DNA of 64,000 nt from Thelephora terrestris (taxonomy: Eukaryota; Basidiomycota; Agaricomycetes; Thelephorales; Thelephoraceae), in assembly GCA_015956445.1 (NCBI GenBank), contig WIUZ02000005.1:1364001-1428000 (forward strand). Direction: 5' to 3'. This document shows, in pieces, positions 4,676 through 58,167 of this stretch. Every line of letters starts with the position of its first letter. Positions within the stretch are counted from its first letter, which is position 1. The notes below the pieces were generated by a model that ran no database searches, was not told the DNA's origin, and worked only from the letters and a program-made list of their open reading frames with translations. The position numbers and the translations under genes were made by a program.

Positions 4676-7376
4676 AGCCTATGATGTTGGAGTGTGAGTG
4701 TTTGAAAGTTCATACCCAGGACGGGAAAGCGCTCCAACTTAAAGCTTGAAGGACGAACCGTTGGGGGAGCATCAGCTTGCTGGGAGGCATTGTTGGCCTT
4801 TGCTGAGCGTTTCCTCTTCCTCGGACCAGGGTTGGCCATTTATGTGCGCTCCAGCCACGACGGGGAGATAGGTGTGGGTTGATAATAAGCGATGTGTGGG
4901 TGCAGTCTGCCAAGCGGGGACGTGGAATGAATGTGCCAACCTGGTTCCGACGGTTACCACGCTAAAGCCTCGACATCGCCACAGATCGCGTGTGCGATGC
5001 GGCGCGGAGCGGGTTCGCGAGCGCCCGATATCCAGTGTGACGACGTTGCGAGATTATTGCGCCTGGGGGACTGGCGAACCCTGTGGAGATGATGAGAGGA
5101 GTGCACGGTCTGGTACGGAATCTACTCCCTGCTCTGAATTTGAGGCTGGATTCCAGCCCAGTCCTGCTCAAGTTCCGTGATTGTGATCACCGTAGCTCTC
5201 ATTCATAAGCAGGAAAGATTCAACTTGCGTTTATGTGGTACAGCGGATCGATATACACCAGTGCGTACGGACTCAATCTACATTGTCATCCGGTTGGCGG
5301 CGGGAATGGGGTAGGAAACCTGAGCGCTTCGTGCAATTATCCAACCACTGGCTGATCTTCTTCAACACCCTTTCGTTGCGAGTTCGCCCCACCGCGTCTC
5401 GGTCTATGTACTAGTACCTGCTGCAGAATGCAAATGCTTATTGAAAAGCAACACTGTGTTGCCTCCAGGTAAGGAGAGGAAACACCTTCTGCAACAAACA
5501 CCTTCTGCAACAAACACCTTCTGCAACGACGTCACCCACCTGACGTGGTCCAGGCTGTGTGAGACGTGAATCCATCAGGGCAAGGTGGACGGTCGTTATG
5601 TATATCCACTCTCTCCTTTTAAACAGGACGGGGGCGGGTATGGGTTTGGGGGAGCATTCCCCATTGGTAGTTTTCAAGCGGGACGTAGCAGAGCCCGAGG
5701 GTGCCTCGCCGTATACACACACGGATGTCACAGCAACGACGGTGGAAAGATGGCGATTCCTGGGAAGGTTGGTTTAATGGGAGAGCTGAGTAAGAACGTA
5801 CCCCATCAATCTCCACCCTAACTGTTTTCATGGTTACCAAAGTTCTCACACCTGCTCAGAACTCTACACTGCGGGAGACATTTTGTTTGGCAATGAAGCT
5901 GTCAGCACCTCAGCGATGCGCTCAGGCACGGAGGTCAACAGTTTCTCCGCGTGTGCTCTGGAATGTATACAGCGAGATTATGTGGGATCTCCAAGGTTTG
6001 ATTTCGAGGAGTGGTCCTGGCCTCGGGAAGAGGATATTGTCGATCCGGAAGCTGCTTACTGAGAAATGACGAAGACACACAGTGACAAAGATTGTGAATG
6101 GCATGGAAGCTTGGGACCAGTGCCATCGCTTTGTCATTAACCGGTCTTGTAGCGAGTGGAAGTTGCCGAGCCGATTGAACAGACGCCCGTAGGACAACCC
6201 TCAGAGAGAGTGAGTGAATAGCGGGGACGGGAAATTCCATAGAGCACAGACTGCACTGCTGGTTCTGGGTACTGGGCATTGCGTATCCAGGGTGGGTATT
6301 GTACTCGAGGACCGGGAGCACCGGTGGTGGCACTGTAGGGACGATTTTCCCTTGGTCCAGTGTTGTGAACGGGACCGGGCGGAACCGGGAGCGGGACCAA
6401 AACCAGCCGCGGAAACTATCGTCGATAGCCTCGAGTTGTGCTCCACTGTGGACCTCAAGTGGACCTACAGAATGGAGCCAGGGTACCTAGGTGGGAGATG
6501 TGTCATGCTGTGCGTGAATGTATGCCCAGCTCAACTCTCCTTTGCCTCGGGCCTTCTCCGCTGTCGATCCCGCACTGCCTCGTTCCGGATACGTTCCCGT
6601 CCGACAGTATGATGTCATGCCTACCCCGAGGCGCCCAGGGCCGAATTCCCTCTGCCCTTGGGCGTTCGAAGTTTAATCAGTGGCCATACACAGTACACGC
6701 GCCAGCCGACACAGCTGGGGGGATAGGTATGGGCGCAGGGGTTCATTCGAGCACAAAGGCGTGGGTGAACCTCACCTCGGATGCCCATGTCCCGACCCGC
6801 AGAAGCAAAGCGTACGGTATGTGATGAGGGTGGAGTACACACCGATGCGCCGTTGGCTCTCCTATCAAAATCGATCAGGCTGCGGCTCTCACGGAAAGCC
6901 GGCGAGTCGTTCTTTGTTCTTTGTTCTTTTTTTTTCTTAGCAACCCACGGTCGCGTAGTCATGCATGGCTATAGTAGTGACTCGTTGCCTATACGACATG
7001 CAGAAAATAGTCGAAGTTGCGGATTACAAGCCTAGAAGCTTCCAGTTCCATCCTGTCTTAGAGTGGGCACGGGCGAGATGGTGTAAACATTTTGGTGAGG
7101 GTTAGCCGAGATGGGATTAGGCACGGTTTGCGATGTATTTACCCCGCAAAATGGATGAGAAAGCACCTGCAGTGCCTTCGAAGCGTTGCCGGACTGTACC
7201 CGTCGCCCCGTCAAGGCTGTACCGAAAAGGAAATCGACCATCGCCATTGGCTGTGACGCCATACGTCAACGCAGGCGCTCTCCACCTTGGACAGCATTTT
7301 GCTTTGGCTTTTAGAGGGACCTTTGCGAACCGTAGAATGGCAAGTCATCCCTCCTTTCCTCAGTTGCAGCCTTCGA
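4676..7376. other. 2.7 kb gene-poor region
   Basis: The first few hundred bases are probably the mannosidase promoter. The rest has only short overlapping frames on both strands with no family resemblance and no convincing splice-joined protein. The one structured element is a three-copy 16-nt repeat at 5481-5527. A pyrimidine-rich stretch near 6910-6940 and the last few hundred bases probably belong to the promoter of the zinc-finger gene at 7377. No tRNA, transposon end or terminal repeat was found. Confidence 0.55.
5481..5527. repeat. Three tandem copies of a 16-nt unit
   Basis: The unit AAACACCTTCTGCAAC is repeated three times head to tail, with one base missing from the first copy. It sits in the gene-poor stretch and is not part of a recognisable coding frame. 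Confidence 0.9.
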
Positions 7377-54873: not shown

Positions 54874-57225
54874 CTATTTCAGCGCTAGTTTCCTCCGCTT
54901 TCGGACGTGTTTCTCTTCAATGGCGCGACTCTTCCGCTTAACGCTCTCCACCAAACTACTGAGACTTTTTTGTCCTTCCGCCTTGGACATGGAATCTGAA
55001 ACTTCCTCTTTGCCCTGTTGCCGTTTTCTCCTTTCTTCCAATAGAGCAGACATGCTCTTCGTCTTTTTGAAGCTGTGGATCCATTAGGTGCACCGATCGG
55101 ACCAGTCGATGGGTCACGCTTACCGTGGATTGCTCGGGTCAATCGCAAAGGCGTGGTCCTCGTGGACGGCCTTGAATCGTTCGTCCGCGACGTCAATGTG
55201 GAAATCTTCTTGAGTGTCTTGGTCGTTCGGCCCGGGTTTCTCTTTCTTGCCTTTCTTCCCGGATTTCTTCTCGGCCTTGAGGACAGCAGACATGTCAAAG
55301 TGCTTCGCGCCGTTGGGATTGTCCGATGCCACAAGCAGCGCCAGCTCCTCCGCAGTGGCAGCCGTCCGTGGCTCACTTGTCTCCTTCCCCTTCTTTTCCT
55401 TCTTTCTCTTCCTCGTTTCCACCGCACCCTCCTCACTCCCACTATCTGCATCGAAGAAATCATCCAGCGGTTGTTTGGGCTTCTTCTTCTGTTGCACCTC
55501 CTTCTCCTTAGTAGCATCCCTGGCCTCCTCCTTCTTTTTCTTCCGCTTCTCCCTCAGTTTACGCTGATACTTCTCCAGCGTTGTCTCGTCCTCCCCCTTC
55601 TTGTCTGTGAGACCGGGTGTAAAAGTGATCTGCATGTCGATATCATCTTCATTGTCGGCGTGATCGTTGGAATTCCCCCAACCCTCAGGCAACTCGTCTT
55701 TGGTACCACCACTGAGGAGGGAGCGTAGACGATCTCGGGAGGCACCCTTTCCAGTTCCCTCCTGATCAGATTCGTCAGATGAACAGGCGATGTAGGCTCG
55801 GAAGTCTTCCTCGTCAATCTCTTTCTTTGTGAGAGCTCGCCGTGTCACTTTGTTCCGTTCGGGGTCGTCCTGATCCCATGTGAGCTTGACTTTTGAGTGT
55901 CTGAGAGCCTATGACAAACTTGCGTTAAACCACGCGGAAAAATTTAACCTTCAAACCTACGTCTGTAGAAAACTCGAGGTGCTTGAAGGTGGTGAGAGAA
56001 TCACCCGTTGCTTCATCCCTGACATAGCCAGGTCAACGTCGCCGTGACCAACGGTGTGTTTCCCTACCTGGGTTCCTGGTCGAACTTCATCTCGTCTGGC
56101 ACAAAACTCATATCAAACACGTTTGCGGATCGTTCGAGCTCGGTACCATCGAGCTCATTGAATATATGAGAGGCGGTGTTGGGACCGTCGCACTCTACGA
56201 TTGCATAATAGTATCTATTATACCACCAATTAACAAACCCTCTAGGTACATCGTAGCAGGGAGGGAAGTACCGTAATCGCTCGAGCTGGTATTTCCTAAG
56301 GGCCTCCTCGTCCACTTCCTCCTCTACATCTCCGGTCTCGAAGATATTCTGCTCGTTGACTTCATCTTCGTGTTCGAACTCCTTGGGTTTCTTGAATAAC
56401 TCAGCAGGTGGTCCTTCCCGCTCTTCCTTGGCCATGCGCTCACGACCAAAGTCGCTAGGGTAGATACGGACGTTGAGGACTTGACCACGAGCGACAGGCT
56501 TAGAAGCTTTTTTGTCGCACGCTGAGGGAGGGCCGGAAGCGACCAACGAAGAAAACATTTTGAACAGATGAACGGCCTTGACATTATCCCAGTCCAGGTT
56601 GACCACAGCAAGACGCCTCGTAGGCTCTATTTCCGGTCCGGCACCGCGCTCTTTGTCGGCCTTTATGAGCGCGTCTGCCTGAGCGTCTAGTTCCGCGAAA
56701 TTTGTTTCGTCAAGGTCGATTTCGAGCTCCTTGTCTGGAATGTCGATCGGCTTGAATTCAGAATGGCCGAGACGAACAAGAGTGTCATCGTCCTCAGAGT
56801 CTGCCGCCTCCTCCTCCTCGTCGGAGGACTCAAGGAGTACAGCACCCCGAGCCAGATCAGGAATAGGCGCAGGAGAGGTCTCTTCTTGGTCGTTATCCCC
56901 TAGGTCATTATTTTCGAGCTTGTAGAAGCGACGAAGGTCGTCTTGGTCCCGGTCGTCCGCGAGTTGACGACCATACTTGTCAACTCGTCCTACCCAATCA
57001 AAGTCAAGATCAGCAACGCCCCTTATGTTATTAGTAACAGTCCCCCCGTAACCAAGAGGTGGAGAAACCGAACAAACCGGAGCCTTTTGGTTTCCGTTTC
57101 TTGGATTTCCTGTCGTCCTGGAAAATAGACTTGAACCGTTCGTCTACGACGACTTTGTGGTCGTTTTTCTTGATCCTTCTGAAGCGAGGGTCTGTCTTGA
57201 ACTTTGCAAAGCGTGGATCAGACAT
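54874..57225 (-). CDS. ESF1: Esf1 pre-rRNA processing protein
   Basis: Esf1 is a nucleolar component of the small-subunit processome needed for 18S rRNA maturation. The start at 57225 gives the signature MSDPRFAKFKTDPRFRRIKK, then VDERFKSIFQD. Next come FDWVGRVDKYGRQ, an acidic stretch, RLAVVNLDWDNVKAVHLFKM, VLNVRIYPSDFGRERMAKEE, LRKYQLERLRYFPPCYDV, YNRYYYAIVECDGPNTASHI and NVFDMSFVPDEMKFDQEPRD. A basic, acidic-patched C-terminal half includes DERFKAVHEDHAFAIDPSNP and ends RKRRKLALK. About 700 residues. Its 3' end lies 97 bp from the hapX start on the same strand. Confidence 0.93.
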
Positions 57226-57587: not shown

Positions 57588-58167
57588 ATGTTCTTCTCTC
57601 CTTCTGCCGTCCTCGCTTTCATCTTCTCCCTTTTCCTCGTTGGCCAGGTTGCCGCCTCTCCTATCCCCGTGCCCATCGTGGTACGTCCAGAGCTTGTCAC
57701 TCTCAACGTTCTGATCCACTCAGTAATCTTTCTAGGCTGCCGTCGAGGAGAGTGTTAAGCGTCAGGCTCCCGTCCCGGTCGAGGTGGCCACCAAATCCGA
57801 CGGCATCAATGTAACTCCATACAAACGCCAAGGTCCCGCCGTCCCGGTCGAGGTGGCTACCAAATCTGACGGTATCAATGTGACCCCCTACAAGCGTCAA
57901 GGCCCCTCTGTACCGGTCGAGGTGGCCACCAAATCTGACGGCATCAATGTGACCCCCTACAAACGCCAAGTTTCTCCAGTCCCGGTCGAGGTGGCCACTA
58001 AATCCGACGGCATTAACGTAACCCCTTACAAGCGTCAAGATCCCTCTGTCCCCCTCCAGGTGGCTTCCAGATCTGATGGTGGTGCCGTTATGCTGTACGA
58101 GCGCTATTCCGAGATCCCTGTGGAATTGGCAGTCAGGTCTGTCAACGGTGTGGTCGAATTATATTAA
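57588..58167 (+). CDS. Secreted precursor of tandem Kex2-cleavable peptides (174 aa)
   Basis: Exons 57588-57680 and 57736-58167 join in phase. Residues 1-23 are a signal peptide (VLAFIFSLFLVGQVAASPIP spans the core). After SVKR come four units of 22-23 residues, each with Gln, a variable 2-3 residue head (AP, GPA, GPS, VSP), the constant core VPVEVATKSDGINVTPY, and a Lys-Arg. Two degenerate units follow (QDPSVPLQVASRSDGGAVML, then SEIPVELAVRSVNGVVELY) without Lys-Arg ends. Kex2 cleavage after each Lys-Arg and Kex1 trimming would release four peptides of 20-21 residues starting with Gln (possible pyroglutamate) and ending in Tyr. This is the architecture of Kex2-processed repeat proteins such as repellent or dikaritin-type precursors. 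No UstY-like or other tailoring enzyme lies in the window, so a cyclic product is not supported here. Function unknown. Confidence 0.85.
57763..58104 (+). repeat. 66/69-bp coding tandem repeat (5 units)
   Basis: Units at 57763-57828 (66 bp), 57829-57897, 57898-57966, 57967-58035 and a diverged one at 58036-58104. The first four differ in the core only at third codon positions. For example, units 1 and 2 differ at eight silent sites and no replacement site in the shared 18 codons (VEV to KRQ). Confidence 0.95.

Follow-up and report, generated by a model that had tools for sequence, protein, structure and literature searches.

KEX2-processed repeat proteins of fungi

KEX2-processed repeat proteins (KEPs) are defined by a secretion signal, by at least three similar fragments of at least eight residues placed between dibasic sites, and by repeats that cover at least 15% of the protein, as set out in passages of Le Marquer 2019 (PMC6339444) and Umemura 2020 (PMC7329392). 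The closest described system is KEP 497993 of Coprinopsis cinerea, which yields pyro-QIPAELPTKSINGNIEPY, a peptide detected by mass spectrometry primarily in premature fruiting body caps, according to the passages that Vogt et al. 2022 (PMC9769878) devote to it. Its products there are pyro-Q peptides with PY or PYK as their C-terminal residues, which are gone in the kep 497993 knockout, and a form in PYKV in Pichia expression; a second product of this KEP, pyro-QVPVDEPA, is also given. The same passages report at least 13 homologs, with Lentinula edodes, Pleurotus ostreatus, P. eryngii, Hypsizygus marmoreus and Panaeolus cyanescens among the species that carry them, and the authors singled out KEP 497993 for its conservation among agaricomycetes (PMC9769878). 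Among the matches listed from the open-access literature, none is, by title and abstract, a further functional study of this family, and the C. cinerea peptide occurs only in PMC9769878.

Type G-1/P-2 (#7) of Umemura 2020 gathers 64 KEPs from 49 genera, none of them with DUF3328 nearby, and the part of the paper that describes it gives a genus list that includes Coprinopsis, Pleurotus, Hypsizygus and Panaeolus and a Tyr-rich profile (PMC7329392).

Gene model and layout of the precursor

The stretch of DNA analysed here (the window, 64,000 nucleotides from Thelephora terrestris) carries on its forward strand a gene at 57588-58167, in which the ATG at 57588 and the stop codon at 58165-58167 were read directly from the window. 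Joining 57588-57680 to 57736-58167 gives a precursor of 174 residues. The intron of 55 nt (57681-57735, GTACGT...TTTCTAG) has canonical splice sites and keeps the frame open; it was picked by eye among many open splice pairs because it combines a GTACGT donor with an acceptor of the pyrimidine-TAG type, and the gene model is a prediction from the sequence. Intron ends were tried up to 57789 in the splice-pair listing, and units 2-6 of the array described below are unaltered in every listed variant.

The N-terminus of the precursor is signal-like, with a hydropathy peak of 3.06 over 11 residues from residue 8. The predicted signal peptide, MFFSPSAVLAFIFSLFLVGQVAA (residues 1-23, 57588-57656), would be cut after VAA, a site read by eye with the -3/-1 rule, in which V takes the -3 place and A the -1 place. 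It is followed by a propeptide, SPIPVPIVAAVEESVKR (residues 24-40, 57657-57762), which is split by the intron. Five Lys-Arg (KR) sites, at residues 39, 61, 84, 107 and 130, bound four units, which are, each with its KR, unit 1 (QAPVPVEVATKSDGINVTPY, 57763-57828), unit 2 (QGPAVPVEVATKSDGINVTPY, 57829-57897), unit 3 (QGPSVPVEVATKSDGINVTPY, 57898-57966) and unit 4 (QVSPVPVEVATKSDGINVTPY, 57967-58035). All four have 20-21 residues between KR sites, start with Gln, end with Tyr and carry the identical 17-residue core VPVEVATKSDGINVTPY, which begins at residues 44, 67, 90 and 113, while the heads after Gln vary (AP, GPA, GPS and VSP). The calculated monoisotopic masses of the four pyro-Q peptides are 2067.05, 2124.07, 2140.07 and 2182.12, and for the peptide of unit 6, described next, the calculation gives 2235.18.

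Two diverged units close the array. Unit 5, QDPSVPLQVASRSDGGAVMLYER (residues 132-154, 58036-58104), was placed by translation and unit alignment, and unit 6, YSEIPVELAVRSVNGVVELY (residues 155-174, 58105-58164), by translation and by the scan with the C. cinerea peptide described below. They are in register with units 1-4 (58036-58164 together), and the array has six units in total. An earlier description made from the letters alone, the sequence-only reading, had the limits of the gene and the five KR sites exactly as found here; its four units with an invariant core stand as well, but it missed the two diverged C-terminal ones.

The units are spaced by 69 nt. Tandem Repeats Finder (TRF) returned five rows for the whole window, two of which are the array, with scores of 388 and 430, and the other three score from 50 to 96. 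An exact threefold tandem repeat of 16 nt, AAACACCTTCTGCAAC, lies at 5480-5527. By the KEP definition, four similar fragments of 20-21 residues lie each between KR sites, and the repeats cover about 46% of the protein (four times 20 of 174 residues).

The precursor contains neither Cys nor Trp and matches no family in the Pfam scan. An NVT sequon for N-glycosylation lies in each identical core (precursor residues 56, 79, 102 and 125) and the next residue is Pro, which after a sequon usually disfavours N-glycosylation. A PDB match of the precursor to ThreeFoil, a designed protein (3pg0, E 2.6e-6), was judged a repeat effect, because the match obtained with one unit as query (E 5.2e-5 overall) consists of three stretches of 7.1 bits (i-Evalue 82) against the three identical repeats of ThreeFoil.

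In a whole-genome search the precursor finds both exons of its own gene and one match with an E-value of 3.15 on contig C11, and at the sensitivity of this search the gene is single copy. A degenerate DNA pattern of the core hits four places, all within the array itself. An ESF1-like gene for pre-rRNA processing (RRM_ESF1 and NUC153, about 55120-57225, minus strand) is divergent from the peptide gene and is a possible synteny marker for orthologs. The KDZ transposase family has 125 matches in the genome on many contigs, and several pairs of equal score on different contigs may be recent copies; KDZ transposases fit a basidiomycete. Hydrophobin has no match in the genome, in a search whose empty result is no proof of absence, and DUF6534 has three weak ones; of two fragments of the peroxidase family, the one compared resembles ascorbate or cytochrome c peroxidase.

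Conservation of the core

Among the 17 codons of the core in units 1-4, ten sites are variable, and all of them are third positions and silent. The four cores differ by at least 11 changes, all silent; that no replacement occurs had been observed by the sequence-only reading. Its count of eight silent and no replacement changes for the pair of units 1 and 2 holds over 19 codons that include the KR, but the 17-residue core gives six. The comparison of dN and dS between units that it had proposed as a check was made by the Nei-Gojobori method and gives, in all six pairs of units 1-4, a pS of 0.23-0.60 and a pN of 0.00. Under a simple neutral model, in which 28% of random changes are expected to be silent, the chance that 11 of 11 are silent is 8e-7; this figure assumes independent changes, and gene conversion between units would weaken that independence but would not create silence. 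The codon pattern supports selection acting on the peptide sequence.

The gene carries in this way its own internal alignment, in which four cores are fixed as protein while their silent sites drift, beside two diverged units. Pro, Ser and Tyr are present in each of seven aligned sequences, units 1-6 together with the C. cinerea peptide, and Glu is absent from unit 5 alone. The alignment narrows down the residues that are important and favours Tyr as the genuine C-terminal residue.

Likeness to the peptide of Coprinopsis cinerea

The C. cinerea peptide was scanned, by its 17-residue core and without gaps, over the six frames of the window and of 30 further genomic loci, in all 327,682 positions, a part of them counted twice where kept loci overlap; loci L001-L006, which hold the same array, were dropped. 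The top five positions are unit 6, with a score of 49, and units 1-4, with 44 each; the next best position scores 30 and unit 5 scores 24. Nine of the 17 residues are identical in unit 6 and eight in units 1-4, in ungapped alignment. Of 20,000 shuffles of the C. cinerea core, none attained 49 or more at any place in the precursor and one attained 44 or more. Shuffling of the units gave the real score in 0-2 of 20,000 cases for units 1-4, in none for unit 6 and in 146 for unit 5. Background 21-mers of the window, sampled every seven residues after those containing unit stretches were removed, reach the score of units 1-4 and of unit 6 in 0 of 10,270 cases and that of unit 5 in 84. Unit 5 on its own likens only weakly to the C. 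cinerea peptide and does not stand out.

The likeness of the core is far beyond chance, so the peptide family is one already known and the gene would be a member of it. The remark of the sequence-only reading that the product matched nothing it knew is not supported, in view of the peptide given in the passages of PMC9769878. The best reading, with a probability of about 0.87, is a gene for a KEX2-processed repeat protein that yields peptides homologous to those of KEP 497993, a relation seen through one published peptide and not through whole precursors. From its predicted product, the gene is a new, repeat-expanded member of the KEP 497993 family, with an amplification and a head extension of its own.

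Other searches add little. The 20-residue C. cinerea peptide gave no candidates in a genome-wide search that missed even the known units and is hence uninformative. In a collection of viral contigs, a search with units 1-6 aligned to the C. cinerea peptide gave five pattern stretches, none confirmed, and in a collection of genome contigs an 89-residue stretch of the precursor gave 167, none confirmed; fungi are not expected in either collection. Fragments of the core found in the open-access literature only an unrelated study of a Mycoplasma adhesin, through the shortest fragment.

Diverged units—Unit 5 ends with a single Arg (ER) in place of KR and differs from each of units 1-4 with a pN of 0.28, and the pN between unit 6 and units 1-4 is 0.44-0.45. 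Unit 6 starts with Tyr after the ER, and its terminal Tyr is the last residue before the stop codon, in agreement with Tyr as the natural C-terminus of this peptide family. Because unit 6 is the nearest to the C. cinerea peptide, it suggests, without proof, that this unit, rather than the amplified ones, keeps the older form of the peptide.

Candidate processing enzymes in the genome

The genome profile search takes one exon at a time, and every count that it gives is a minimum. It finds a P-domain that adjoins a subtilisin domain on contig C1 near 999 kb, and this subtilisin fragment is closest in the PDB to yeast Kexin (E 2.4e-70). It is the only P-domain match in the genome, where introns may hide others; C. 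cinerea and other agaricomycetes have three kex2 genes, according to passages of PMC9769878. Of the matches to the peptidase families, one of eight subtilisin, three of 29 S10 and one of nine M28 matches were compared with the PDB. The S10 fragment on contig C4 near 550 kb has KEX1 as its best match (E 1.6e-9), and the other two compared are closest to carboxypeptidase Y and to lysosomal protective protein. The M28 fragment, on C1 near 4,413 kb, is closest to a glutaminyl-peptide cyclotransferase (E 2.5e-22), and a putative glutaminyl cyclase is also reported from C. cinerea in PMC9769878, in the passage on processing. Three of the eight subtilisin (S8) matches are on C45, the contig of the array, at 1349380, 1441344 and 1444444 (L015-L017), no more than about 75 kb away from the peptide gene, and none of the eight falls inside the window.

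The layout of the precursor, its hydropathy and the kexin fragment support the earlier view of a secreted precursor of Kex2-released repeats, with the cutting itself as a prediction. In C. cinerea the kex knockout strains examined, the kex2a/c double knockout among them, retain the peptides, according to the passage of PMC9769878 that treats them, and therefore no single Kex2 is shown as needed.

Proposed maturation and function

The signal peptide would take the precursor into the secretory pathway, where Kex2 would cut after each Lys-Arg and a KEX1-type carboxypeptidase would trim Lys and Arg, leaving a C-terminal Tyr. The N-terminal Gln exposed by the cut would be turned into pyroglutamate, probably via a glutaminyl cyclase, which fits both the related C. 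cinerea peptide and the glutaminyl-cyclase-like fragment. The predicted output is four linear peptides of 20-21 residues, with a common core and unit-specific heads, to which units 5 and 6 would add one or two diverged peptides. A cut after the ER of unit 5 may release unit 6, since products of C. cinerea KEPs expressed in Pichia suggest cuts after single Arg, as described in part of PMC9769878. For these peptides we infer expression, cutting, pyroglutamate formation and secretion from the sequence of the gene.

The role of the peptides has its main guide in C. cinerea, where the kep 497993 knockout has no phenotype in the passages on it and the synthetic peptides tested, which are unnamed there, have no antibacterial activity; Vogt et al. 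favour a role in biotic interactions (PMC9769878). The antimicrobial role, one of those put forward by the sequence-only reading, is made less likely in its antibacterial form by these results. We infer tentatively that the peptides act as an extracellular signal or agent, either toward organisms around the fungus or in fruiting tissue at an early stage, rather than as a building block or as an antibacterial. The fixed conserved core with differing heads, beside a C-terminal peptide of older type, might even make up a multi-ligand signal in which the heads tune stability or receptor choice, an idea that we regard as improbable. Should the core be a hormone conserved among mushrooms, at which the detection in C. 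cinerea caps may hint, the species may have amplified it into such a signal.

Alternative readings of the array

A structural or surface role similar to that of Rep1 of Ustilago maydis, with peptides that form amyloid-like fibrils, is the alternative that survives best and is still very unlikely. The precursors are of the same kind, and the fibrils of Rep1 peptides are mentioned in a passage of PMC9769878; however, the unit peptides are rich in the polar residues Lys, Asp, Glu, Ser, Thr and Asn in a precursor that has no Cys or Trp, and the related C. cinerea peptide was found as a linear peptide in extracts of tissue, as the relevant passages of the same paper describe.

A precursor of dikaritin type, a ribosomally made and modified peptide (RiPP) whose Kex2-cut cores are cyclised by UstYa (DUF3328) enzymes, has an even smaller probability. 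Its layout would be alike, every unit has a Tyr, and two UstYa matches elsewhere in the genome pass the cut-off, at C1:3765846-3766100 (L009) and C12:2608517-2608786 (L010), a lower bound that a split UstYa gene could escape. But the array is on C45, away from both, and the ten proteins scanned with Pfam, which are the precursor and nine pieces of open reading frames from 44.2-62.9 kb of the window, include neither UstYa nor any biosynthetic enzyme of the type of RiPP clusters. The C. cinerea peptides are, in addition, described as linear and minimally modified in passages of PMC9769878. As neither UstYa match is on the contig of the array, a linear pyroglutamyl peptide, not a dikaritin, would be expected from this gene. 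A precursor of dikaritin type may sit near one of the two UstYa matches on C1 and C12.

Kex2 repeats within a secreted fungal precursor are also found in alpha-type pheromone precursors, and for such a pheromone the present gene is a very poor candidate. Trp is expected in the core of ascomycete alpha-pheromones, and there is no Trp anywhere in this precursor. A WXW motif is named for alpha-pheromones in a passage of PMC7329392. The heads after KR are QA, QG, QG, QV and QD, with X-Ala in one of five and X-Pro in none, so they form no STE13 ladder. Finally, a recent slippage repeat without a selected product, which the tandem units and their strict spacing would suit, has next to no probability, because the likeness of the core to a peptide of another species, C. 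cinerea, largely refutes it, and against it stand also the signal-like N-terminus, the exact KR phase and the silent-only variation of the four cores, which with the shared motif bear out the preference for selection over fresh slippage in the sequence-only reading.

Comparison with known systems

Among the described precursors, dikaritins (ustiloxin, phomopsin and asperipin) have in common with this gene a signal peptide, here a predicted one, and repeats separated by Kex2 sites, and differ in that the contig of the array is without a UstYa match. Rep1 of U. maydis is, like this gene, a KEP of a basidiomycete, and the two are compared here by the kind of precursor. The genera listed and the Tyr-rich profile make type G-1/P-2 probably the same family as this gene, although Lentinula, for which Vogt et al. 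2022 name a homolog, is missing from the list as given in the part of Umemura 2020 that describes the type.

The gene is closest to KEP 497993. In both systems the product, here a predicted one, begins with Gln, which is pyroglutamate in C. cinerea, and can end in ...PY, the cores align without gaps, and Pro, Glu, Ser and Tyr are at matching places of the core in the C. cinerea peptide, in units 1-4 and in unit 6. Unlike the C. cinerea peptide, units 1-4 insert a variable head of 2-3 residues between Gln and the core, and they have SDGIN where the C. cinerea peptide has SINGN. The gene studied here has four identical tandem cores and two diverged ones, an arrangement that is set beside KEP 497993 at the level of the peptide only. 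With the masses predicted from these units, the KEP 497993 family gains targets for peptidomics in another species.
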